A DNA stretch of 52,343 nt, from the IMG/VR virus record IMGVR_UViG_3300024346_000092, positions 1 to 52,343 of that record. One strand, 5' to 3'. How positions within the stretch are numbered: the stretch's first letter is position 1; each line of letters opens with the position of its first letter. Below the pieces are notes generated by a model, which ran no database searches, was not told where the DNA came from, and was given only the letters and a program-made list of their open reading frames with translations. Source of the stretch: a virus. The position numbers were made by a program, and so were the translations under genes. Positions 4,405 to 47,255 of the stretch are shown one piece after another.

Positions 4405-4875
4405 ATGAGCGACAGGTATTACACACAAATGCTGGAAACCACAGGTTGGTGTCCTGGCTACCGCAGTACCTACACTCTTGCCGAATACAAACAAAACTAT
4501 AAACTAAAAAGGAAAAGAACTATGGCGTGGACAGACGAAAGTAAAGAACAAGCAGTTGAAATGTATACTGCAGAAGAACCAACTCCAGAAAACAGTATGG
4601 AGATTGTTAAGATGATTGCTGAAGAATTAGGCGAGAGCCCAAATGGTGTCAGAATGATTCTAACTAAAGCAGGTGTTTATGTTAAGAAAACACCAGCAGT
4701 CAAATCAAGCAGCGGTGGAACAGGTGGCGGTAGAGTCAATGTTGCAGCAGCTCAAGATGGATTGACTAAAGCTATTGCTGATGCAGGCGAAGAAGCAGAC
4801 AGTGCTATTGTAAGTAAGCTTACAGGTAAAGCAGCTGTGTATTTCACAAACCTAATCAACAAACTTAACGATTAA
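4405..4875 (+). CDS. SANT/HTH-like 'WTDE' regulator, single module
   Basis: A 156-residue protein. Residues 1-39 are a basic leader, then comes a module beginning 'MAWTDESKEQAVEMY' and ending 'GESPNGVRMILTKAGVYV' that looks like a small Myb/SANT or helix-turn-helix unit. A Gly/Ser linker and a helical tail follow. The module resembles those of the 238-residue protein at 10826. ATG 4405 has AAGGA upstream; an in-frame ATG at 4522 (starting at the WTDE module) also has AAGGA, so two products are possible. The gene stands alone between promoter P1 and a strong terminator, as expected for an abundant DNA-binding regulator. The role is inferred. Confidence 0.65.
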   Translation: MSDRYYTQMLETTGWCPGYRSTYTLAEYKQNYKLKRKRTMAWTDESKEQAVEMYTAEEPTPENSMEIVKMIAEELGESPNGVRMILTKAGVYVKKTPAVKSSSGGTGGGRVNVAAAQDGLTKAIADAGEEADSAIVSKLTGKAAVYFTNLINKLND

Positions 4876-4887
4876 TACCCCTGGAAT

Positions 4888-4919
4888 GTGGGTAGTCTTA
4901 GGACTGCCCGCACTTTTTT
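4888..4919 (+). terminator. Intrinsic terminator
   Basis: A GC-rich hairpin: left arm GTGGGTAGTC at 4888-4897, loop TTAG, right arm at 4902-4913 pairing over ten base pairs with a two-base bulge. Six T residues follow (4914-4919). It lies 13 bases after the stop of the single-module WTDE protein. Confidence 0.88.
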
Positions 4920-4995: not shown

Positions 4996-5268
4996 ATGAA
5001 AAAAGACGATTTTGTTAAAAAAATTGATGACGCTGGTGATGCAGTAGTCACTTACAGAAGTCAGAACAGTCGCAGAATGAAATATAATGTCTGTACTAGA
5101 GACTTCGACAATAAATACATACAGGAGAAAAGAAACAGAGCAAAGCCGAATAATAATCAAGTATTATTATTTTGTTGGGACACTGATTCTTATAGACTAT
5201 TATCTCCTGAAAGCGTAACTTCTATCTTACCTCTAGCGAGGATTTTGAAAAATGATAGAATTACATAA
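4996..5268 (+). CDS. Hypothetical phage protein (90 aa)
   Basis: It starts at ATG behind AAGGA, about 75 bases after the terminator. The N-terminal half is basic; the C-terminal half, 'VLLFCWDTDSYRLLSPESV...PLARIL', looks like a small beta-sheet domain. No promoter of the conserved type precedes it, so it may rely on terminator read-through or an unseen promoter. Function is unknown. Confidence 0.65.
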   Translation: MKKDDFVKKIDDAGDAVVTYRSQNSRRMKYNVCTRDFDNKYIQEKRNRAKPNNNQVLLFCWDTDSYRLLSPESVTSILPLARILKNDRIT

Positions 5269-5554
5269 CGCACCAGCTGTTTACGAAAAAGAAATAGGTT
5301 ATAACGAAGCTAAACATGAAAAAATCTTCGTTATGGTCAATACTTTTCGTGAGACAGAGTATTTACATATAAGAAAGTACTATCAAGACTTTGACGAAGA
5401 ATGGAAACCTACAAGGAACGGCATAGCCATGCCTTTAGATTTTAATAATAGTCGTGGATTGTTTGAGGCGTTAGTAGAGATTCTCTCGATATCAGAAGTC
5501 AAAGGAGTGCTAGAAACTCATTTTAAAGAAGTGTTAGACAAGATTTACCTATAG
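5252..5554 (+). CDS. Hypothetical protein (100 aa)
   Basis: It starts inside the end of the previous gene (17-base overlap). The protein is acidic and predicted soluble, with no recognisable domain. It ends just before promoter P2. Only the coding call is supported. Confidence 0.65.
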   Translation: MIELHNAPAVYEKEIGYNEAKHEKIFVMVNTFRETEYLHIRKYYQDFDEEWKPTRNGIAMPLDFNNSRGLFEALVEILSISEVKGVLETHFKEVLDKIYL

Positions 5555-7373: not shown

Positions 7374-7750
7374 GTGGCGGAGTATATAATCAAACCTTTT
7401 TCAACAACCATCCGTGGGAAAAAGAAAAAGACGGCATACTATACGGAATAGTACTGGTAAACATGCAAACATGGGAACGAGAAACAATAAAAGTAGGAAT
7501 CGCAAAAGGGCGAACATTCAAAGACGCAGTAAAGCGAGGGCGTGGATTTACAAACTACGACATAAGAATACAGAGACTTTGGCAGGGGACGATATACGAC
7601 TGCTGGAGATGGGAACAGAAATTACACAAGATGTATGAAAAAGACAGACATAAAACACAACACCATTTTGGAGGGCATACGGAATGCTTTGGCATGGACT
7701 CAAAAATCCTACACAGTTTCCCCAAGAAAAATGAAGTATTTAGGGATTAG
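7370..7750 (+). CDS. GIY-YIG-like nuclease domain protein
   Basis: A 126-residue protein with 'GILYGIVLVN' near residue 22 and 'IKVGIAKGR' near 40, in the place of the two strands of a GIY-YIG domain. An Arg-rich helix follows ('KDAVKRGRG'), then Glu in 'WEQKLHKMY' and a final 'FGGHTECF', as in the T5orf172/MUG113-like branch. Such proteins are often free-standing phage endonucleases. The canonical Tyr-Ile-Gly is degenerate, so activity is uncertain. The start overlaps the previous stop (ATGA), and the 3' end overlaps the carbamoyltransferase by 20 bases. Confidence 0.6.
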   Translation: MSGGVYNQTFFNNHPWEKEKDGILYGIVLVNMQTWERETIKVGIAKGRTFKDAVKRGRGFTNYDIRIQRLWQGTIYDCWRWEQKLHKMYEKDRHKTQHHFGGHTECFGMDSKILHSFPKKNEVFRD

Positions 7751-9059
7751 TGAAGGATTCCATGATGCCGCAGTGGCACATATGGAAGACGATAAGATTC
7801 TATTTGCAACTCAAGCTGAGAGGTATAGTCGTGTCAAGAATGATAAACATCTTCCTATAGAGTTTAAGAAACTAGAATGTAATCAAAGTTTTTTCTATGA
7901 AGATACAGAGTTGAAAAATGCTCGTAGAATAGCTAGTGGCATGAAGCCCACAGATAATGGTAAGTTTATATCAAACCATGTTAGACATCATGAGAGTCAT
8001 ATGGCAGCAGCTTATTATACTGCTCCTTTTGTTCCAGATGTTACAGTAGTTATAGATGCTATTGGAGAATGGGACACAGCAAGTATTTGGGTAGACCACG
8101 AGAAAGTATGGAGTCGACAGTACCCTTGGTCACTAGGATTATTCTATAGTGCAATTACAAAACGAATAGGACTCAAGCCAAACGAAGATGAGTATATAAC
8201 AATGGGCATGGCTGCATATGGTACACCTTGTATAGACATGACTAGTATAGTACATGAAAATCTACATAAAGGTATTCCTATGAAAAAATGGTTTTGGCAA
8301 ACACCTGAAGATATTGCCGCTAGTGCGCAGTTGCAAATTGAATTTGAGATTGGAAAAATATTTGATAAGGCAAGAACGTACGGAGATAAAGTAGCATACG
8401 CTGGTGGCGTTGCACTAAACTGTGTAGCAAACAGTAAAATAAGAAACAAGTTTAAAGAGATGTGGATATTTCCTAATCCAGGAGACGCAGGTAGTGCATT
8501 AGGTTGCATACTTGCTAGTACAAAACAAAGGATAGAATTTAAAGATACTTTTTTAGGATATGATATTGATAGACCTATCAATCCTTATAAAGTAGTAGAA
8601 GAATTAATTAATAACCGAATGGTAGGAGTAGCAAATGGAAAAGCAGAGTTTGGCCCTAGGGCGCTTGGTAATCGCAGTCTTCTTGGCGATATCCGTTATG
8701 ACATTAAAGACACCGTTAATGATGTCAAAAAACGACAGAAGTTTAGACCCTTCGCTCCCGCGATATTGGAGGAGTTTGTAGATGAATATTTTGAAGGGCA
8801 TTGTAACGAGTATATGCAGTATGTTGCAAAAGCAAAACACGACCACAAAGCAGTCACCCACGTTGATGGAACTGCAAGAGTACAAGTGGTTCGTAAAGAC
8901 AGCACCTCAGCATTACGACCAATACTAGAAGCGTATTACGAAGTGACGAAGATACCAATGTTATTAAATACAAGTTTAAATATAAAAGGGCAACCTATGG
9001 TTAACACATGGGAAGACGCCAAATTATTTGAAAAAAGATATGGAGTAAAAGTATTTTGA
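7731..9059 (+). CDS. Carbamoyltransferase, NodU/CmcH family
   Basis: A 442-residue protein. The start at 7731 gives 'MKYLGISEGFHDAAVA', the typical N-terminus of the family; an in-frame upstream ATG at 7635 would add residues that overlap the previous gene and fit no family. The metal/ATP motif 'HHESHMAAA' is at 86-94, 'AGGVALNCVANSKI' lies mid-protein, and the C-terminal YrdC-like part has 'EFGPRALGNRSLLGD' from residue 306. These enzymes carbamoylate hydroxyl groups of sugars (NodU), antibiotics or nucleoside-linked glycans, using carbamoyl phosphate and ATP. The family is also known from other phages. A capsule, LPS or virion-glycan substrate is inferred from the neighbours. Confidence 0.88.
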   Translation: MKYLGISEGFHDAAVAHMEDDKILFATQAERYSRVKNDKHLPIEFKKLECNQSFFYEDTELKNARRIASGMKPTDNGKFISNHVRHHESHMAAAYYTAPFVPDVTVVIDAIGEWDTASIWVDHEKVWSRQYPWSLGLFYSAITKRIGLKPNEDEYITMGMAAYGTPCIDMTSIVHENLHKGIPMKKWFWQTPEDIAASAQLQIEFEIGKIFDKARTYGDKVAYAGGVALNCVANSKIRNKFKEMWIFPNPGDAGSALGCILASTKQRIEFKDTFLGYDIDRPINPYKVVEELINNRMVGVANGKAEFGPRALGNRSLLGDIRYDIKDTVNDVKKRQKFRPFAPAILEEFVDEYFEGHCNEYMQYVAKAKHDHKAVTHVDGTARVQVVRKDSTSALRPILEAYYEVTKIPMLLNTSLNIKGQPMVNTWEDAKLFEKRYGVKVF

Positions 9060-10064: not shown

Positions 10065-10823
10065 ATGACAACGATTACACCACCAACCAATTGTCCTTGT
10101 TGCGACTCTATTTTAGAGTTAGTCAATGAGCAGTTGTTCTGCAGAAACACAAAGTGTCCTGCACAATGGAGTAAAAAGTTGGAGTCCTTTTCATCTTCTC
10201 TTAAAATAAAAGGGCTTGGACCTTCAACTATCTCTAAGTTAGGTGTTGAATCTTTGCCCGAGCTTTACGAACTTACTGTATCAGATATACAGGATAGAAT
10301 ACAAAGTGAAAAACTAGCTGAGAAACTTTTTGATGAATTGCAGAAGTCAAAGAGTAGTAAGTTGATAGACATTCTACCAGCTTTCTCAATACCACTTATT
10401 GGTCGGTCGGCTTCTCAAAAATTATGCGATATAATATCAAACATCGAAGATATTAGCGAGAACAGTTGTACTGAGGCAGGTATCGGACCAAAAGCATCAG
10501 CTAACTTGGTAAATTTCATGGAAACAGAATTCTATCCTAACAGATACAAAGACACATTACCCTTCAATTGGAATAATAAAATTAATAAAAAGAAAGAGGT
10601 CACTGGTGTTGTATGTATTAGTGGTAAGTTAAAAAGCTACCCTACAAAAGCCCATGCTACTAAAGTATTAGAACAGTATGGATTCGTAGTAAAATCAAGT
10701 CTAACAAAAGTTTGTACTCATCTTATAAATGAGTCAGGCATTGAGTCAGCAAAGACGGAAACAGCTCGTGACCGAGGTGTTATTATAATAAGTAATATAA
10801 AACATTTAATTGGAGAAAATTAA
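10065..10823 (+). CDS. ligB: NAD+-dependent DNA ligase, C-terminal half (zinc/HhH/BRCT)
   Basis: A 252-residue protein that starts with a four-cysteine zinc finger (Cys10, Cys13, Cys26, Cys31; 'CPCCDS...CRNTKCP'). It continues with helix-hairpin-helix motifs ('IKGLGPSTISKLG', 'GIGPKASANLV') and ends with a BRCT domain (about 178-252, 'GVVCISGKLKSYPTKAHATK'). These are exactly the domains missing from the ligase half at 5606-6544. The two proteins should assemble into one nick-sealing ligase. Its own promoter P3 allows expression apart from the catalytic half. Domain order is clear; assembly is inferred from T5-type ligases. Confidence 0.9.
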   Translation: MTTITPPTNCPCCDSILELVNEQLFCRNTKCPAQWSKKLESFSSSLKIKGLGPSTISKLGVESLPELYELTVSDIQDRIQSEKLAEKLFDELQKSKSSKLIDILPAFSIPLIGRSASQKLCDIISNIEDISENSCTEAGIGPKASANLVNFMETEFYPNRYKDTLPFNWNNKINKKKEVTGVVCISGKLKSYPTKAHATKVLEQYGFVVKSSLTKVCTHLINESGIESAKTETARDRGVIIISNIKHLIGEN

Positions 10824-10825
10824 AA

Positions 10826-11542
10826 ATGGCATTACCAAAATGGACAGACGAAAGAACTTCAGAGTTAACTTCTTTCGTGGGCAGTGAGTCCCCTATCTCA
10901 CAAACTACTGTTGCGTCAGCAGCAGAGCAGTTAGAAACTTCTGTAAGAAGTGTATCTAGCAAATTAAGAAAAATGGGTTTTGATGTAGAACTAGCTTCTG
11001 CTTCAGCTTCTAAGTCTTTTTCAGACGAACAAGAAGCAACTCTTAGCACTTTTGTGCAAGATAACTCAGGTTCTTACACATATGCAGAAATTGCATCAAA
11101 CTTTGAAGATGGAAGCTTCACAGCTAAGTCAATTCAAGGAAAAATCCTTTCTATGCAGTTAACAGAACATGTTAAACCAGCACCTAAAGTTGAGACTGTA
11201 AAGTCATACAACGAACAGGAAGAAGGACAGTTCGTATCATTAGTTAATGATGGTGCGTTTATTGAAGATATCGCAGAAGCTATGGGCAGAAGCGTAAATT
11301 CAATCAGAGGAAAAGCTTTATCACTACTAAGAGCTGGTGAAATCAATGCTATTCCTAAGCAGAAAGAAACTAAAGGTTCTAGCAAAGCTGACCCTTTAGC
11401 AGGTGTCGACATTGACGGCATGACTGTTGAAGAAATTGCTGATGAAATCGGCAAAACAGTAAGAGGCGTGAAAACAATGCTTACTAGAAGAGGTCTACAA
11501 TGCTCAGACTATAACGGAGCTGCTAAAAAAGATATAGGCTAA
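10826..11542 (+). CDS. Multi-module SANT/HTH-like 'WTDE' regulator
   Basis: A 238-residue protein made of four related modules, about residues 5-54, 64-117, 126-176 and 192-228. Each starts with an aromatic-[T/S/N]-[D/E]-E helix or its remnant and ends in a recognition-helix-like segment ('SVRSVSSKLRKMGF', 'SVNSIRGKALSLL', 'TVRGVKTMLTRRGL'). The pattern suits tandem Myb/SANT or HTH units that bind repeated DNA sites. The same module occurs once in the protein at 4405. It follows ligB by two bases, and a strong UUCG-loop terminator comes right after it, so it probably closes the P3 transcript. A phage transcription factor or DNA-organising protein is inferred. Confidence 0.65.
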   Translation: MALPKWTDERTSELTSFVGSESPISQTTVASAAEQLETSVRSVSSKLRKMGFDVELASASASKSFSDEQEATLSTFVQDNSGSYTYAEIASNFEDGSFTAKSIQGKILSMQLTEHVKPAPKVETVKSYNEQEEGQFVSLVNDGAFIEDIAEAMGRSVNSIRGKALSLLRAGEINAIPKQKETKGSSKADPLAGVDIDGMTVEEIADEIGKTVRGVKTMLTRRGLQCSDYNGAAKKDIG

Positions 11543-11557
11543 TACCTATACATCGCG

Positions 11558-11592
11558 GGCGAGCTTTCCTTCGGGATTGCCTCGCCTTTTTT
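11558..11592 (+). terminator. Intrinsic terminator with UUCG tetraloop
   Basis: Outer arms GGCGAGC (11558-11564) and GC-C-TCGCC (11579-11586) surround an inner TCC-TTCG-GGA hairpin. Six T residues follow (11587-11592). It lies 15 bases after the stop of the four-module WTDE protein and just before the helicase gene. Confidence 0.92.
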
Positions 11593-11622
11593 ATAAATTA
11601 ATAATTGTCTTGGGAGATTCAA

Positions 11623-12984
11623 TTGACATTAGAAAGTGCATTACTAAAGCAAATACTTGCGCTAGGCGATTTCAATACTTGGAATGGTCTAAAAGAACAC
11701 TACTTCCCTGAAGGTGAGTACCGAAAACTGTGGAAAATAGTAGACAAGCATGTACATAAGTACCAAGATTTGCCAACATTTGAAGATTTAAAACTAGAAG
11801 TCCGTTCAAGGGAACTTCAAGAAAAAATCTATGCCATTGAAACTGTGGAAACAGATGTTGCTCCAGAACTTTTATTAGATTATTTAAAAAACCAATTTAC
11901 ACAAAGTGAGATTCTTACAAGAATTGAAACTTTTGTAGACACTCAAATAGCTATCGGAGATGCTCGTGAAAACATTGACTTGTTGCAAGAAATTGTAGTA
12001 CAAGTTGAAGATAGAGTAGAAACGAATGATGCCAACGAAAGTATGGAACATATTGAGTTATTTGATAGTGAGGAAGATTTAGCAATGGCTCTTCCACTAG
12101 GTCTGAACTCAGAATTCGATTTTGATTATAAGTTCTCTCCCAAAGACTTAGTAGTTATCGGTGCTTCACGAGGCAAAGGTAAATCACTTTCTCTATGTAA
12201 TAGTGCTGTTTCTTCCCTTCAAAGAGGTAAGTCAGCATTATACTTTACTATAGAGATGTCTACTAGAGAAATACTACAAAGAATATGTGCAATGTCAGTC
12301 GGTGTTCCGCTTGGCAGACTAGAAGCTAGAAACCTTACTACTATGGAGTGGCATAAGGTAGCTGACTGGTGGGCTGCAAGATTCGAGAATGGAGACGAGG
12401 TTAGGAAAGAGTACGACGATCACCAAGATTTTGACAAGTTTCATTATCAATTGACTCGTAATCCGCTTCGTAAAGATGTTCCTCAAATAGACATCTATTA
12501 TGACCCTTCCCTTACATTAGCAAAAGTTATCAGCGTAGTAAAACAAAAACTAGTAGAAGACCCTAATCTAGGGATTATCATAGTGGATTATCTAAACCAA
12601 GTTAAGCGCCATAACGCGCCTACTCGTGGAGGTCAGTACGAATGGACTGAACAAATAGAAATATCAAAAGGGTTAAAATCACTAGCCCAAGAGAGTAACG
12701 TTCTTGTTCTCTCAGCATATCAAGTAAATAAAGACGGTGAAGCAAGATTCTCTAAGGGTATTCTTGACGCTGTTGATGCGGCCTTTACCCTAGACCATTG
12801 GGGTGATGAGCATGATTGTGTAGAATTTAAATGTGATAAAATGAGAAGTGGAAAAGAAAAAGGTTTTATTACTAGAATGAACTGGGAAACATTGAGAATG
12901 GGACCTGAGACAGAGATAAACCCTGATACTAAAGAAGAAATGAAAGAGGCTCTAAGCACAGGAGAAAGTGCTTATGATATATAA
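11623..12984 (+). CDS. Replicative DNA helicase, DnaB/RecA-like
   Basis: A 453-residue protein from TTG 11623, chosen because GGGAG sits six bases upstream; the in-frame TTG at 11605 lacks a site. The C-terminal RecA core has Walker A 'GASRGKGKS' (about residues 180-188), the 'ALYFTIEMS' strand with catalytic Glu, and Walker B 'LGIIIVDYLNQV', with a final 'DAAFTLD...CDKMRSGKEKG' arginine-finger region. The shortened N-terminal domain suggests a phage-type helicase. It should unwind the fork with the primase at 14861 and the polymerase at 16105. It lies directly behind a terminator, so its level may depend on read-through. Confidence 0.88.
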   Translation: MTLESALLKQILALGDFNTWNGLKEHYFPEGEYRKLWKIVDKHVHKYQDLPTFEDLKLEVRSRELQEKIYAIETVETDVAPELLLDYLKNQFTQSEILTRIETFVDTQIAIGDARENIDLLQEIVVQVEDRVETNDANESMEHIELFDSEEDLAMALPLGLNSEFDFDYKFSPKDLVVIGASRGKGKSLSLCNSAVSSLQRGKSALYFTIEMSTREILQRICAMSVGVPLGRLEARNLTTMEWHKVADWWAARFENGDEVRKEYDDHQDFDKFHYQLTRNPLRKDVPQIDIYYDPSLTLAKVISVVKQKLVEDPNLGIIIVDYLNQVKRHNAPTRGGQYEWTEQIEISKGLKSLAQESNVLVLSAYQVNKDGEARFSKGILDAVDAAFTLDHWGDEHDCVEFKCDKMRSGKEKGFITRMNWETLRMGPETEINPDTKEEMKEALSTGESAYDI

Positions 12985-13642
12985 TCCTCTACAACAAAGA
13001 GTGTGTATTGGAGAAATACTCACTAAAGATTTATTAAAAACACTACCGCCTGTAGACCTTTGGAATGTCAAGGGGTGGTACGAGCGACAGCAGGATAGAT
13101 TAGACATAAGACTGTACGCTTTTGTAAAAGATGTGTTGAGCAACGGGTTCGTCAACCCAGTTATAATATGGTATAGTGACACTGCAAAAGAGTTTTCTAT
13201 ACATCCAGGAATGAATAGGCTCATGCTAAATAGAGTACTAAATTTAGATATGAAAGCATGGGTAATTAGTTATGATGTAAACAACTACAGAAGACTAGGA
13301 AAACTATTCCCAGGTATTACTAAGTTAAGAACTGATATTAACGGGAACAGAGACATAAAACTAACTGCTCAACACAGGACAGATAACAGATTATACGAAA
13401 TAGTATTCGATAAAGATAGAATACTACCACAGCTAAGAACCGAGAGTAATAGTGCAAAGTGGAATGAAGTATCAAGTAAAACAGGTTTTCATATATGGCA
13501 CAACAATGAGTACATTGGTGCAGTAGGAAATGCACAAGACCACTGGAACGTAAAAGATGTTTCAGGAGTATATGAATTAGCACTAAAATATTATTTTAAC
13601 AAGGAGACATCTAATGCTTTTATACACAGAAAGACAACTTAA
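12974..13642 (+). CDS. ParB-like N-domain protein A
   Basis: A 222-residue protein that starts at ATG 12974 behind GGAG; it overlaps the helicase end by 11 bases. Residues 57-90, 'NGFVNPVIIW...IHPGMNRLMLNRVL', match the ParB/Srx core in which the 'H-P-G-x-N-R' segment takes the place of the GxxR nucleotide-binding motif. The C-terminal part ('NNEYIGAVGNAQDHW') is not recognised. ParB-like domains occur in CTP-dependent clamps, nucleases and modification enzymes; the type cannot be told here. A second ParB-like protein follows at 13777, so they may work together. Confidence 0.55.
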   Translation: MIYNPLQQRVCIGEILTKDLLKTLPPVDLWNVKGWYERQQDRLDIRLYAFVKDVLSNGFVNPVIIWYSDTAKEFSIHPGMNRLMLNRVLNLDMKAWVISYDVNNYRRLGKLFPGITKLRTDINGNRDIKLTAQHRTDNRLYEIVFDKDRILPQLRTESNSAKWNEVSSKTGFHIWHNNEYIGAVGNAQDHWNVKDVSGVYELALKYYFNKETSNAFIHRKTT

Positions 13643-13787
13643 ATTAGCATACGAAAAGTATATACAAAATTTAATAACAACTAATAGACAAGGTATAGAA
13701 ATACCCCTTCCAGGCTTAGAAGAGTTTAGAGATATATTTGAAGCCGAATGGACACAGAAATACAAGGAAATGGACAATGGCTTATGA
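13614..13787 (+). CDS. Small hypothetical protein (57 aa)
   Basis: An ATG at 13614 with AAGGAG eight bases upstream opens a 57-codon frame. It fills the space between the two ParB-like genes and overlaps each slightly. The peptide is helical and charged ('RQLKLAYEKYIQNLI', 'LEEFRDIFEAEW'). The strong ribosome site and the fit between neighbours make it a likely real gene. Function is unknown. Confidence 0.7.
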   Translation: MLLYTERQLKLAYEKYIQNLITTNRQGIEIPLPGLEEFRDIFEAEWTQKYKEMDNGL

Positions 13788-14259
13788 TAGAGTAAGCCGA
13801 GAGACAGCGGAACTAGTACCATTACCACCACATACATGGTACGTAAGAACAGTAGGATGGTTATTAGAACAAGAAAAAATAAAAGAAAACATAAAAAATG
13901 TTCCGCTTAATAAAAAGTTAAAGGACAGTTTGGCAACTGACGGAGTAAAATCTCCCATACTCTGTATGCCAAACTGGTACCCCATAGCAGGGAGTCAGAG
14001 GATGAGATGTCTTCAAGATCTCCCTGCGCTACATGGACAAGAGATAAGAGTATGTCGTTTTGACAAAGAGTGGTGGTTAGTGTTCTATCTATGGGAAAAG
14101 ACAGAAAGAGATAGAATAGTAGCAATTTACTTCCAAATGCTAGAGTTAGTATGGAAGTCAATGTATTACGAAGATGCTACAGATTCAAAAGGAATAGACT
14201 ACAAAGAATTTGAAAAAATAGGAGACGAGCTAGATGGCTGGAAACACAAACAAACCTGA
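13777..14259 (+). CDS. ParB-like N-domain protein B
   Basis: A 160-residue protein from ATG 13777 behind AAGGA; longer in-frame versions run into the small gene upstream. Residues 45-90, 'LNKKLKDSLATDGVKSPILCM..WYPIAGSQRMRCLQDL', match the ParB/sulfiredoxin-like fold, with 'AGSQRMR' as the nucleotide-binding G-x-x-R segment. The last third is acidic and helical. It overlaps the methyltransferase gene by 26 bases. It could bind DNA or a nucleotide near the replication genes; no partner ParA is seen. Confidence 0.6.
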   Translation: MAYDRVSRETAELVPLPPHTWYVRTVGWLLEQEKIKENIKNVPLNKKLKDSLATDGVKSPILCMPNWYPIAGSQRMRCLQDLPALHGQEIRVCRFDKEWWLVFYLWEKTERDRIVAIYFQMLELVWKSMYYEDATDSKGIDYKEFEKIGDELDGWKHKQT

Positions 14260-14818
14260 GAATTATTTAGAAGGGGGACTTCCTGAATGGGGTAGTATGA
14301 GATTTAGTCCTCCATCAAGTTGGAATGTAAAACCTAATAGAGAATGGTTTGGACTAATAGGGTTTATAAACTCTTTAGATATATCTGATGGACACATGAT
14401 AGAGGTAGGTACATACGCAGGAGAAAGTACTGCAATGTTTGCATCTAGTGGTAAATTTAAAAAGATTCATACAATAGACCCATATTTTTATGGGTGTGGG
14501 CATGAGGTATTTATGGAAGCAAAAGTTAACTGTAGATACTGGAATAACATAGAGTTTCATAGAAATTACTCTCAAAAAATTTCTAATAAATTTACAGACG
14601 GTGTATTTGATTTAGTATATCTTGATGGCGACCATAGAGGAGAAGCAGTAGAACAAGATTTAGAACTATACTGGCCGAAAGTAAAGCCTGGCGGGTATAT
14701 GGGAGGTCATGACTACAATCCAGAGTATTGGCCTGAAGTATACAACGCAGTCAACAAGAAGTTTAAGGGAAAAATGATGCAAACTTTTGATGATAAATCA
14801 TGGCTTATCCGAAAATAG
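14234..14818 (+). CDS. Class I SAM-dependent methyltransferase (Methyltransf_24-like)
   Basis: A 194-residue protein with motif I 'IEVGTYAGES' at 56-65, 'IDPY' at 81-84, motif II/III 'FDLVYLDGDH' at 125-134, and 'GGHDY' at 157-161. This set is typical of the Methyltransf_24/CmcI-like group, which often methylates sugars or small molecules rather than DNA. Among the other decorating enzymes it may O-methylate a sugar, though this is inference. The stop codon TAG is formed by the AAAATAG of promoter P4. Confidence 0.8.
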   Translation: MAGNTNKPENYLEGGLPEWGSMRFSPPSSWNVKPNREWFGLIGFINSLDISDGHMIEVGTYAGESTAMFASSGKFKKIHTIDPYFYGCGHEVFMEAKVNCRYWNNIEFHRNYSQKISNKFTDGVFDLVYLDGDHRGEAVEQDLELYWPKVKPGGYMGGHDYNPEYWPEVYNAVNKKFKGKMMQTFDDKSWLIRK

Positions 14819-19286: not shown

Positions 19287-19522
19287 ACAAAATGGTAAAA
19301 GCACTGGAAGAAGGAATAGTACTAGTACAGTATGAAGACCTAAGAACAGGAGAAACAAAAGAAAGAGAGATGACTTTAGTACCTGAAAATACTAGAGGTA
19401 TGGATGCACGTGCGTTAAATGACGGAGACAAACTAGGTGGTAGAATACTTATGTTTGATGTTGAATTTTGCAAATGGGCAGACATAAGAGAAGATACAAT
19501 TATAGACTGGAGAAAGTATTAA
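19271..19522 (+). CDS. DUF2693-like SH3-fold protein
   Basis: An 83-residue protein with the order helix, 'VLVQYEDLRTGETKEREMTL', a loop, then 'MFDVEFCKWADIREDTIIDW'. This fits the small SH3-like DUF2693 phage family, which is widespread in T4-like phages and has no firm function. AAGGA precedes the ATG. Its TAA overlaps the ATG of the next gene (TAATG). Confidence 0.7.
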   Translation: MAQDLDKMVKALEEGIVLVQYEDLRTGETKEREMTLVPENTRGMDARALNDGDKLGGRILMFDVEFCKWADIREDTIIDWRKY

Positions 19523-21036
19523 TGTGCGGTTTTGTTGTAACAACTGAAAACAATTTAGCTGATAAATACATTGACGCACAGAGATTTAGAGGTCCCGATG
19601 CTCGTGGTGAAACTATAAGGTATATGCACGATTTAACTTTTGCGCATGTACTATTAGACATATCAGGAGAAAATGAGGTACAACCTTATATAACTAAGAA
19701 GGGCAACATAATGGTATTCAATGGAGAAATGTATGACTCTAATATACCCAACGATACTAAATTCCTAGCTGAAGGCTACGAGAAGTATGGTTTCAAGTTT
19801 ATAGAGTTCGGAAATTGGCATGGTTCTTTTTGTTTTATGGACTACAAGACAGGCATATGTGACATTGTTAGAGACCATTTTGGGGCAAAACCTTTATGGA
19901 TAAAAAGCGACAATGGAGGAATATCAGTAAGTACAAGTCTTGCTAGTTTTGTTGGTGCGAAACCTAAAGAACTTAATAAAAAGTTTTTATCTAATCCTAT
20001 TTGGTCAGGTTCAGACTCACCTTTCAAGGGTATAAGAAAAGTAGAACCAGGGCAGCTTTATCATTATGACACAAAGAAATGTGTATTAAAAAGAGGTGAT
20101 AATTTATGGTCAGGATATAGAGTAAAAAATAATCCCTTTGTAGAGGAACAGTTTAAACATGAACTTGTAAAGGGAATACAAAAAGTAGCAAAAAATAAAC
20201 AAAAAACAGCTATATTTTTAAGTGGAGGACTAGACAGTACCTGTGCTTTGGGTGTAGTTAAAGATATGGGGTTAGACTTAACTGCATACATTTGTGCATA
20301 TTCAGAGGAAGAAGGAGTAGAGTATAGACAAGACATATTTGCCAATGAAGCCGCTCTTGCAATAAAGACTTGTAAAGAGTGGAATGTTCCTTACAAAGTA
20401 GTAACTCTAACTAGAAAACAAAGAGATGAGTACGGCAGAGCATGGATGGAGAAAAATAATTATCTATGGAATGATAATAATAGAAGAGCTCCTAGATATG
20501 CACTTGCAAAAGCAGCATCTGAAGATGGGTGTAAAGTTGTACTGACAGGGGATAGTGCAGACGAGTTTTTTAGTGGGTATCAACATCACTCCAAAAGATT
20601 TACAAAAGGGTACAATGCTAAATGGATAAAAGGCTTTTGTGAGAATCAGTCTTGGGTTCGTAAAGAAATATTTAAAGGAGATAAAGACGGATTCAATTCT
20701 ACTTTATTTATGGACTTAATGATAACAAGTGAAAATAATGTTTTAGCCGCTGACCAGACTTGCGGGTTATTTGGTATGGAAAGTAGACCTGTATTTTTAA
20801 CTCAAGAATTTGCTAGATATGTGTATGAATTTGAGGGAAAAACTAAAATGAAACTACATAAAGACTACGTTACAGGCACTTATAAGTACTTACTAAGAGT
20901 AATAATGAAAGATTATATACCTAAACATATACAAGATAGAAAGAAAAAATGTGGATGGTCTAGTCCTTGGGATAACAACTCTAAGATGAATCAAATACAC
21001 AATCAAAAAATATGGCGAAAATGGACAAAACAATAG
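19522..21036 (+). CDS. Asparagine synthetase-like glutamine amidotransferase
   Basis: A 504-residue AsnB-type enzyme. The ATG at 19522 is chosen because it gives 'MCGF', where Cys2 becomes the N-terminal nucleophile of the glutaminase domain (about residues 2-190). 'FNGEMYD' and 'RFRGPDARG' match that domain. The synthetase half has the PP-loop 'SGGLDSTCAL' (234-243) and 'TGDSADEFFSGY'. Phages rarely need asparagine, while AsnB paralogues often amidate sugars or acids in glycan and antibiotic loci, so an amidotransferase on a glycan building block is a fair alternative. It overlaps the cytidylyltransferase by 25 bases. Confidence 0.85.
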   Translation: MCGFVVTTENNLADKYIDAQRFRGPDARGETIRYMHDLTFAHVLLDISGENEVQPYITKKGNIMVFNGEMYDSNIPNDTKFLAEGYEKYGFKFIEFGNWHGSFCFMDYKTGICDIVRDHFGAKPLWIKSDNGGISVSTSLASFVGAKPKELNKKFLSNPIWSGSDSPFKGIRKVEPGQLYHYDTKKCVLKRGDNLWSGYRVKNNPFVEEQFKHELVKGIQKVAKNKQKTAIFLSGGLDSTCALGVVKDMGLDLTAYICAYSEEEGVEYRQDIFANEAALAIKTCKEWNVPYKVVTLTRKQRDEYGRAWMEKNNYLWNDNNRRAPRYALAKAASEDGCKVVLTGDSADEFFSGYQHHSKRFTKGYNAKWIKGFCENQSWVRKEIFKGDKDGFNSTLFMDLMITSENNVLAADQTCGLFGMESRPVFLTQEFARYVYEFEGKTKMKLHKDYVTGTYKYLLRVIMKDYIPKHIQDRKKKCGWSSPWDNNSKMNQIHNQKIWRKWTKQ

Positions 21037-23610: not shown

Positions 23611-24003
23611 ATGTTACTATTTAATTGGAATAAGATAATAAAAGTAAGCAAAGGAGATATTGGTAAGATAATACAAATACTTCGTATAATTACTTATAAG
23701 ATTCAACCAAAAAATTACTATGATAAAACATTTGAGTTTTATCAGCATCGCTTCGGCGGAGAGTCATATCTTCTAAATCCGAAAGATTTACTCGAAGTTG
23801 GACGTACATTTAGTGATAGAGAAGTTGCAGAGTATGCAGGTGTCGCATCCTTTCGCAATTATCACAACTATGTAAATACTAAAGACACCACACTAGAATG
23901 TCTGCTATCACCGATATCAGACGAAATTATAAAAAATAACAGACTGCTCGATATAAAGGAAGGTCGGATTACCTTTATGTTTGAGGAGACAATGGAGAAA
24001 TAA
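23611..24003 (+). CDS. Hypothetical protein (up to 130 aa), start uncertain
   Basis: The first ATG (23611) lies directly behind the -10 box of P5, about six bases upstream of the expected transcript start, and has no ribosome site. No in-frame ATG, GTG or TTG follows until near the C-terminus. AAAGGAG at 23650-23656 sits before near-cognate ATT/ATA codons at 23659-23671. So it is translated either from longer read-through mRNA or from a non-standard codon. The protein contains 'YYDKTFEFYQHRFGGESYLL' and 'FSDREVAEYAGVASFRNY', the latter HTH-like. Function is unknown; it precedes the ssDNA-binding protein gene. Confidence 0.6.
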   Translation: MLLFNWNKIIKVSKGDIGKIIQILRIITYKIQPKNYYDKTFEFYQHRFGGESYLLNPKDLLEVGRTFSDREVAEYAGVASFRNYHNYVNTKDTTLECLLSPISDEIIKNNRLLDIKEGRITFMFEETMEK

Positions 24004-46474: not shown

Positions 46475-46855
46475 TTAAAAGCTCCCTGCGTCTACCGTGT
46501 CTGAGTCCGCTGAATTGTTACCTATCATTATAGGGACAAATTCAAAGTTTCCACTTGTTATTTCTCGGTAGATCTTTAACTGATTATCATCAGTGTCATA
46601 AAATAAATCTCCTTCAGCTAAGTTTGCAAGGTCTGCTGATGGAGCCGTTGTAGCAACATGAAATTGGTCTGCTAAAAAATTTAGTGCATCTTCGACATTG
46701 TTTGTGCCTACAAGAGTACCTGACGGTGAGGAAAGAGTTATCCCCGACGCATCACTGAGTGCTGCGGCTACTGCTGAAGAAATAGTAAGGGTGGTAGTAT
46801 TAGAGGTGGCAGTTATAGCGCTAGTTTTAGGAGTTATAGTTACTGTTGTTGCCAT
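46475..46855 (-). CDS. Virion structural protein (126 aa)
   Basis: A Thr/Ser/Ala-rich N-terminal part, then 'VEDALNFLADQFHVATTAPS' and 'EGDLFYDTDDNQLKIYREI', the last resembling the 'GDLYYDTDTNELKIY' units of phage tail fibres. It shares its last base with the start of the upstream gene (TAATG-style overlap), so both are coupled. Confidence 0.7.
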   Translation of the reverse strand: MATTVTITPKTSAITATSNTTTLTISSAVAAALSDASGITLSSPSGTLVGTNNVEDALNFLADQFHVATTAPSADLANLAEGDLFYDTDDNQLKIYREITSGNFEFVPIMIGNNSADSDTVDAGSF

Positions 46856-47196
46856 TATCTTGTTACATTTGGAGTAACTCTTGCTACCCCCTCGATTATT
46901 CTTGTAATACTATCTGCTGATGTATTTTGCAATTCTAAATCATAATAGTATTTACCTGCAGCTACGTTACTTGTAACGGCATGCCCCATAGCCATATTTA
47001 ATTTGCCTTGGGATCCGCTAGTAATAGTACATGTAAATGTTGCTGTAAGAGTGCTTGATGTGGGGGTAGGTCGCAACTGTGCTGTTGCTACGTGATTGCT
47101 AGTTAAAACTATTGGACTTCCATCTTCTGCAAGTGCAATTTCAAGGGCGAAATCCGCTCCCTGGTCAATAACTATATCATATTTTCCTGCTGCCAT
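46855..47196 (-). CDS. Virion structural protein, baseplate/fibre domain (113 aa)
   Basis: 'KYDIVIDQGADFALEIAL', '...LRPTPTSSTLTATFTCTIT' and 'GKYYYDLELQNTS...RIIEGVARV' form a beta-sandwich pattern seen in phage tail and baseplate-upper proteins. It is the first gene after promoter P7, with GGAG before the ATG, so it starts the leftward transcript that reaches the Thr-rich fibre. Confidence 0.72.
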   Translation of the reverse strand: MAAGKYDIVIDQGADFALEIALAEDGSPIVLTSNHVATAQLRPTPTSSTLTATFTCTITSGSQGKLNMAMGHAVTSNVAAGKYYYDLELQNTSADSITRIIEGVARVTPNVTR

Positions 47197-47216: not shown

Positions 47217-47255
47217 ATTATATCAAAAACTTGAGGTGGTGTCAAGAACTATTTT
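47217..47255 (-). promoter_or_regulatory. Leftward sigma70-like promoter P7 with conserved 5' extension
   Basis: On the minus strand AAAATAGTTCTTGACA lies at 47255-47240 (-35 at 47245-47240). A 17-base spacer leads to TATAAT at 47222-47217. The -10 is 20 bases before the ATG at 47196, and GGAG lies between them. It is identical in the 16-base 5' part to P3, P4 and P5. Confidence 0.9.

Follow-up and report, generated by a model that had tools for sequence, protein, structure and literature searches.

A D5 orthologue with repeated helix-turn-helix modules, and one upstream element at both early- and late-type promoters, in an uncultured marine T5-like phage

The window analysed here is the whole of a 52,343-nucleotide stretch of viral DNA. 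The gene of interest lies on its plus strand at 10826–11542, from ATG to stop, and encodes a protein of 238 amino acids that an earlier note had described as a four-module regulator, possibly reading a repeated promoter sequence. The protein matches PHROG 323 ('transcriptional regulator, D5-like') at 5.5e-42, aligning residues 2–235 with positions 4–258 of the 319 in the profile; for this family 897 phage records reach a coverage of at least 80%. It is 46–50% identical to the D5 proteins of T5, VCPH and KEY, and the top BFVD match of its structural model, at E = 7.7e-25, is D5 from Vibrio phage vB_ValS_X1. The replication region of the window is ordered as in phage T5, running D3, ligA, ligB, D5, DnaB-type helicase, primase, polymerase, helicase and SbcCD, and the order ligA..ligB–D5–DnaB is common to the window, T5 and six other phages. 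Full-length similarity to PHROG 323, the succession of ligB, D5 and replicative helicase, and a helix-turn-helix fold are thus all found in this protein. We therefore identify it as the orthologue of T5 D5 in an uncultured T5-like phage from the sea; it belongs to a known family and is not a new regulator.

The likeness to T5 D5 (gpD5, T5.118) extends over the full length (46% identity) and into the surroundings. In both phages ligB comes before and a DnaB-type helicase after, there is promoter sequence 5′ of ligB, and a terminator lies directly 3′ of D5. The window protein differs in being shorter (238 as against 255 amino acids in T5) and more acidic, and its first module is without the insert carried by that of the T5 protein. 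Moreover, a single perfect promoter with the marine-type element discussed below lies 5′ of ligB in the window, where T5 has two.

Rice and colleagues reportedly purified T5 D5 in 1979 and found that it binds double-stranded DNA cooperatively. The GenBank record of T5 notes that the protein binds DNA, is needed for replication and for late transcription, and takes part in shutoff. In the T5-like phage phiR2-01, D5 ranks among the most abundant particle proteins (PMC8624392). A 2026 preprint (PMC13405049) reports that the T5 protein is a 26-kDa monomer that is toxic on its own, that it triggers retron-Kva2, and that it disrupts a retron complex; phages escaping this retron carry mutations in D5 or D3. 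In an AlphaFold3 model from the same work the helix-turn-helix of T5 D5 contacts the stem-loop of the retron-Kva2 msDNA (PMC13405049). Contact with DNA of so unrelated a kind suggests that sequence specificity is low. The T5.1 retron escaper is reported to have a premature stop (W74*) in D5 (PMC13405049). This is hard to reconcile with an essential D5, and may be explained by mixed plaques or reinitiation.

The AlphaFold2 model of the window D5, calculated from an alignment of 28 sequences, has a mean pLDDT of 85.6 and a pTM of 0.35, values that indicate well-formed domains with no fixed orientation to one another. A fold search with the whole model against the PDB returned nothing at E ≤ 0.001, as expected of a flexible chain. 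Four modules can be delineated along the plus strand. Module 1 (10838–10996, residues 5–57) has predicted helices at 8–18, 26–35 and 40–49, of which the last is the recognition helix with a net charge of +4. Module 2 (11009–11185, residues 62–120) has helices at 67–79, 86–92 and 100–109, and module 3 (11195–11356, residues 124–177) at 130–141, 146–153 and 157–169. Module 4 (11390–11521, residues 189–232) is incomplete, having helices at 201–208 and 212–222 and lacking the first. Profile comparison relates modules 2 and 3 (E = 2.6e-8), 1 and 4 (2.7e-6), 1 and 3 (8.4e-6), and 3 and 4 (1.5e-5), where the highest probability among 400 column-shuffled controls was 24; taken alone, the pairing of module 2 with module 4 or with D3 was not significant. 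The modules thus form a repeat family, to which the N-terminal module of D3 also belongs. To this extent the earlier description of four SANT/HTH-like modules holds, in that both model and profiles give helix-turn-helix repeats, a DNA-binding fold, three of them complete; the fourth lacks its first helix, and the SANT name has to be dropped. No SANT/Myb family of Pfam was matched at E ≤ 1 with the protein or at E ≤ 10 with the modules, and the fold is rather a generic tri-helical helix-turn-helix. A relationship with GcrA-type regulators, suggested by a WTDER...GK pattern, was also discarded, as PF07750 has no match in the window while the control search was positive in Caulobacter.

The distribution of charge and conservation follows the modular plan. 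The protein as a whole is acidic (pI 4.93, net charge –8), as are the first and second helices, but the third or recognition helix of every module is basic, with a net charge of +2 to +4. Compared with seven T5-type D5 proteins the recognition helices are 60–65% identical as against 46% overall, with the exception that the second helix of module 2 is conserved as strongly as they are. Basic, conserved third helices within an otherwise acidic protein are the pattern expected of four DNA-reading helices. Strings of small helix-turn-helix modules likewise occur in the CRISPR-repeat binding protein Cbp1, in Tc3 transposase and in the paired domain of PAX6. These have weak structural and sequence similarity to D5, but they belong to unrelated families and bind defined sites. 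That D5 might be a protein of the sigma-factor kind was raised by a match to PF08281 (sigma-70 region 4) of 41.6 bits, above the cut-off of 25.7, and by record PQ657804, in which an orthologue is called 'sigma 70'. Yet module 4 contributes most of this score (24.8 bits) and modules 1 and 3 match weakly, as generic helix-turn-helix similarity would give; moreover the modules repeat one another, and only models of the region 3/4 type match, with none for the core-binding, –10-reading region 2. We regard a sigma-like D5 as highly improbable.

The second gene, which the earlier note had called a single-module paralogue, lies at 4405–4875 on the plus strand and encodes 156 amino acids. It matches PHROG 1725 at 1.9e-27, a family annotated as D3 in many records, and it is placed between an early promoter and ligA. 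Since the two proteins match PHROG 323 and PHROG 1725 and occupy the same places as in T5, the pair corresponds to T5 D5 and D3. The relationship between them is borne out by profile comparison, in which the N-terminal module of D3 matches module 1 (E = 8.5e-10) and module 4 (5.5e-8) of D5. The predicted model of D3 has a single tri-helical module (residues 44–89) and a separate C-terminal helical domain; T5 D3 (T5.113) likewise combines one helix-turn-helix module with a helical domain at the C terminus, and stands in the same place, after P-N26. The four-module repeat structure of D5, with D3 as its single-module relative, is new. The window D3 begins with a 39-residue extension (4405–4521; M[SG]DR[FY]Y...G.CPG...KRKR, with a basic KRKR end) that marine-clade D3 proteins conserve and T5-type D3 proteins lack. 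An internal start at 4522 was rejected as the true one, because the stretch of 39 residues before it is conserved and some relatives have no ATG at this internal site.

Each of the two genes lies at the end of a transcription unit. Promoter P3 (9999–10037, plus strand) consists of AAAATAGTTC followed by TTGACA-17-TATAAT and the early-type discriminator ATATT; it is succeeded by ligB, encoding subunit B of an NAD-dependent DNA ligase (10065–10823, plus), then D5, and then an intrinsic terminator at 11557–11593 (plus; GGGCGAG...CTCGCC TTTTTT, with –15.8 kcal/mol for 11557–11587). Promoter P1 (4342–4380, plus), which has AAAATAGTTC, TTGACT-17-TATAAT and an early-type discriminator, drives D3 alone, with a terminator at 4887–4919 (plus; –17.7 kcal/mol for 4887–4912). 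These P1 and P3 starts and hairpins confirm the layout described in the earlier note, in which both regulator genes are the last of transcripts that begin at the conserved promoter and end at an intrinsic terminator. The statement that only two clear intrinsic terminators exist in the window also stands, for the remaining strong hairpins with T-runs lie inside genes or are antisense. P1 and P3 are the counterparts of P-N26 and P-K28a/b, which in T5 itself lie 5′ of D3 and of ligB, respectively. The terminator lies directly after D3 in the window, but after the next gene in T5.

The strong promoter–gene–terminator cassettes are conserved in relatives. A terminator follows D5 in T5, VCPH, KEY, Bennett, PM135, 234P1 and AmPh_EK80, and is present in 39 of 50 distinct marine flanks, with 23/50 for that of D3; six other genes of the region gave 0–3 of 50, and shuffled flanks gave none. 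The stems are unrelated in sequence, so that what is kept across the family is the position of the D5 terminator, a feature that is new. Since there is no perfect promoter between this terminator and P4 (window 11543–14811), expression of the DnaB-type helicase (11605–12984) seems to require read-through. Taken at its simplest, this arrangement means that D5 has to be made in excess over its downstream neighbours. Such an excess would fit a stoichiometric DNA-binding protein, as may be compared with the abundance of D5 in phiR2-01 particles (PMC8624392).

Five further promoters have been located in the window. P2 (5561–5599, plus; AAAATAATCC with TTGACA-17-TATAAT) lies upstream of ligA, which in T5 is also preceded by a promoter. 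P4 (14812–14850, plus) and P5 (23572–23610, plus) both carry AAAATAGTTC and lie upstream of the primase and of the gene at 23611 with the SSB/SbcCD genes, respectively. P6 (27382–27420, plus) has perfect –35 and –10 boxes and the diverged element AAAGTATATC. P7 (47217–47255, minus strand) has AAAATAGTTC with the late-type discriminator TTAGC, and lies upstream of a tail-fibre assembly gene (46855–47196). Some neighbouring genes also deserve mention. A 100-residue protein at 5252–5551, just before P2, matches PHROG 4053 ('transcriptional regulator') and is another candidate phage factor for promoter choice; at the equivalent position VCPH has a gene annotated as an ssDNA-binding transcriptional regulator. 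The gene at 19468–21036 weakly resembles those of QueC-type queuosine biosynthesis (PHROG 1550), and at 7635–9059 there is a Nol-like carbamoyltransferase (PHROG 1601); these are possible DNA or surface modification functions.

How specific is the upstream element? In the window there are five exact copies of AAAATAGTTC where 0.37 would be expected, all adjoining TTGAC, and of 37 exact copies counted over five marine genomes 36 lie directly against a –35 box, compared with an expectation of ~0.4–0.7 per genome. Over 273 distinct perfect marine promoters the ten positions from –45 to –36 hold 14.7 bits, with A-40, T-38 and C-36 conserved at 91–97%. The same positions in 52 promoters of T5-type phages hold 7.6 bits and have another consensus, AAAATTTTA. 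When IMG/VR was scanned for the composite promoter, 115 of 119 loci proved to encode homologues of these T5-like phages. In prokaryote genomes totalling 257 Gb there were 64 matches, with T5-like homology at just 12 loci. On these last counts a general feature of bacterial promoters was rejected; the element is the signature of one phage lineage. One contig binned to a Halieaceae MAG, NZIJ01000061 (L298, L312), contains the composite phage promoter twice and encodes proteins with identities of up to 79% to those of these phages, either a possible hint of the host or a binning artefact.

The upstream A-tract of a promoter is the expected binding place of the alpha subunit of RNA polymerase. P1 and P3 have the –45 A-tract, the TATAAT and the ATAT-type discriminator of T5 early promoters (P-N25, P-N26, P-K28 and P31, with the A-tract at –45 to –42), and the promoters occupy the same positions relative to D3, ligA and ligB in the window as in T5. 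The difference lies in the upstream sequence and –35 box, which are AAAATAGTTC with TTGACA in the marine clade and AAAATTTTA with TTGCTN in T5-type phages. Host RNA polymerase might be the sole reader, its alpha C-terminal domain on AAAAT and sigma region 4 on GTTC-TTGACA; the element would then be kept for very strong promoters and D5 would have no direct part in promoter choice. This is consistent with a location at –45 to –36, where the element adjoins a perfect –35 box, and with the A-tract being common to T5 promoters, which sigma-70 RNA polymerase transcribes (PMC7472727). On the other hand the element is almost absent from bacterial genomes and other viral contigs, although related polymerases are used there, and the conservation of A-40, T-38 and C-36 is high for an upstream site. 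We put this possibility at a little below evens, and as regards the element it is compatible with the explanation that we prefer.

The element is not confined to promoters of replication genes. It is found also at those of tail-fibre assembly (PHROG 3304), the small subunit of terminase (PHROG 3802) and Hsp20/endolysin (PHROGs 432 and 7), where the discriminators are TTAGC, TATTTT and CAAAA instead of ATAT. By discriminator the perfect promoters of these phages, among them window 47217–47255 (minus strand) and L158, L159, L162 and L163 (G001/G002), form two sets, one with the ATAT type 5′ of replication genes and one with other sequences 5′ of the tail-fibre, terminase and Hsp20/endolysin genes. 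The element is present at 14/14 promoters labelled late and 43/57 labelled early, the labels being in part assigned after the discriminators had been seen. A discriminator starting AT occurs at 56 of the 57 early-labelled and at none of the 14 late-labelled promoters, with the same partly post hoc labels and with the 'late' of endolysin being an inference, so that a p-value for this contrast should not be read literally. Thus the element occurs at replication and at late structural and lysis promoters alike and cannot distinguish early from late, and as an early-class operator it was rejected; it is the discriminator that separates the classes. In T5 the early promoters share an ATATT discriminator and the late ones differ mainly at this place (PMC7472727), a rule that on the promoter sequences appears to extend to an uncultured marine lineage. 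What is new is a two-class promoter set with one common upstream element.

In the light of this, the idea in the earlier note that D5, perhaps with D3, reads AAAATAGTTC beside the –35 box and so autoregulates P3 and P1 can be weighed. D5 has four DNA-binding modules, D5 and D3 are both driven by element-bearing promoters, and the element is restricted to T5-like phages and holds more over its ten positions than the expected need of an alpha-subunit site. That restriction, together with the 14.7 bits, would also fit a specific reader encoded by the phage, and the room so left has led us to keep this model as a rival. It is countered by the presence of an identical element at early- and late-type promoters, by the use of the same promoter by many other genes, and by the coincidence of the first half of the element with the A-tract common to T5 promoters. 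Furthermore, the element and the –35 box differ in concert between the marine phages and those of the T5 type, whereas the recognition helices of D5 changed least. A specific reader of this kind seems to us unlikely. What survives of the regulator proposed earlier is a DNA-binding, transcription-related protein, as the orthologue of T5 D5; AAAATAGTTC as its specific operator fits poorly with early and late occurrence, the different T5-type sequence and the A-tract overlap. A broader version is that D5, perhaps with D3, appropriates promoters, marking every phage promoter through AAAATAGTTC against the –35 box so that the polymerase of the infected cell would prefer phage to host promoters, with the discriminator separately setting early or late. 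We consider this quite unlikely.

We think it probable that D5 is an abundant, weakly specific double-stranded DNA-binding protein of several helix-turn-helix modules, and that AAAATAGTTC is a general part of the phage promoters. With transcription from P3, a strong early promoter of the sigma-70 type, running through ligB, D5 would be made in quantity, and the terminator that follows D5 directly would keep the downstream replicative helicase at a lower level. The three complete and one incomplete modules would grip double-stranded DNA by way of four basic recognition helices and, with many modules and little sequence preference, D5 may coat or bridge the phage DNA. DNA coated in this way could support replication and the change from early to late transcription. 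The element would be an upstream extension of the –35 box and in part an A-tract site for the alpha subunit, rather than an operator specific to D5 or to one promoter class. For the phage of the window we infer the abundance, low specificity and regulatory route of D5, where non-specific coating is based on the number of modules, the abundance of D5 in one relative and the biochemistry reported for T5.

The early-to-late switch of T5 with the sigma-70 polymerase has been described as unknown (PMC7472727). The marine clade provides a clean natural comparison, with hundreds of near-identical promoters that have the same AAAATAGTTC and core boxes and a discriminator that varies by gene class, alongside the same four-module plan of D5. 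This promoter set offers precise mutations for finding which part of the promoter D5 and other phage factors act on. Given that D5 triggers retron-Kva2 (PMC13405049), a modular plan that is kept in widespread marine phages may also matter for studies of defence.
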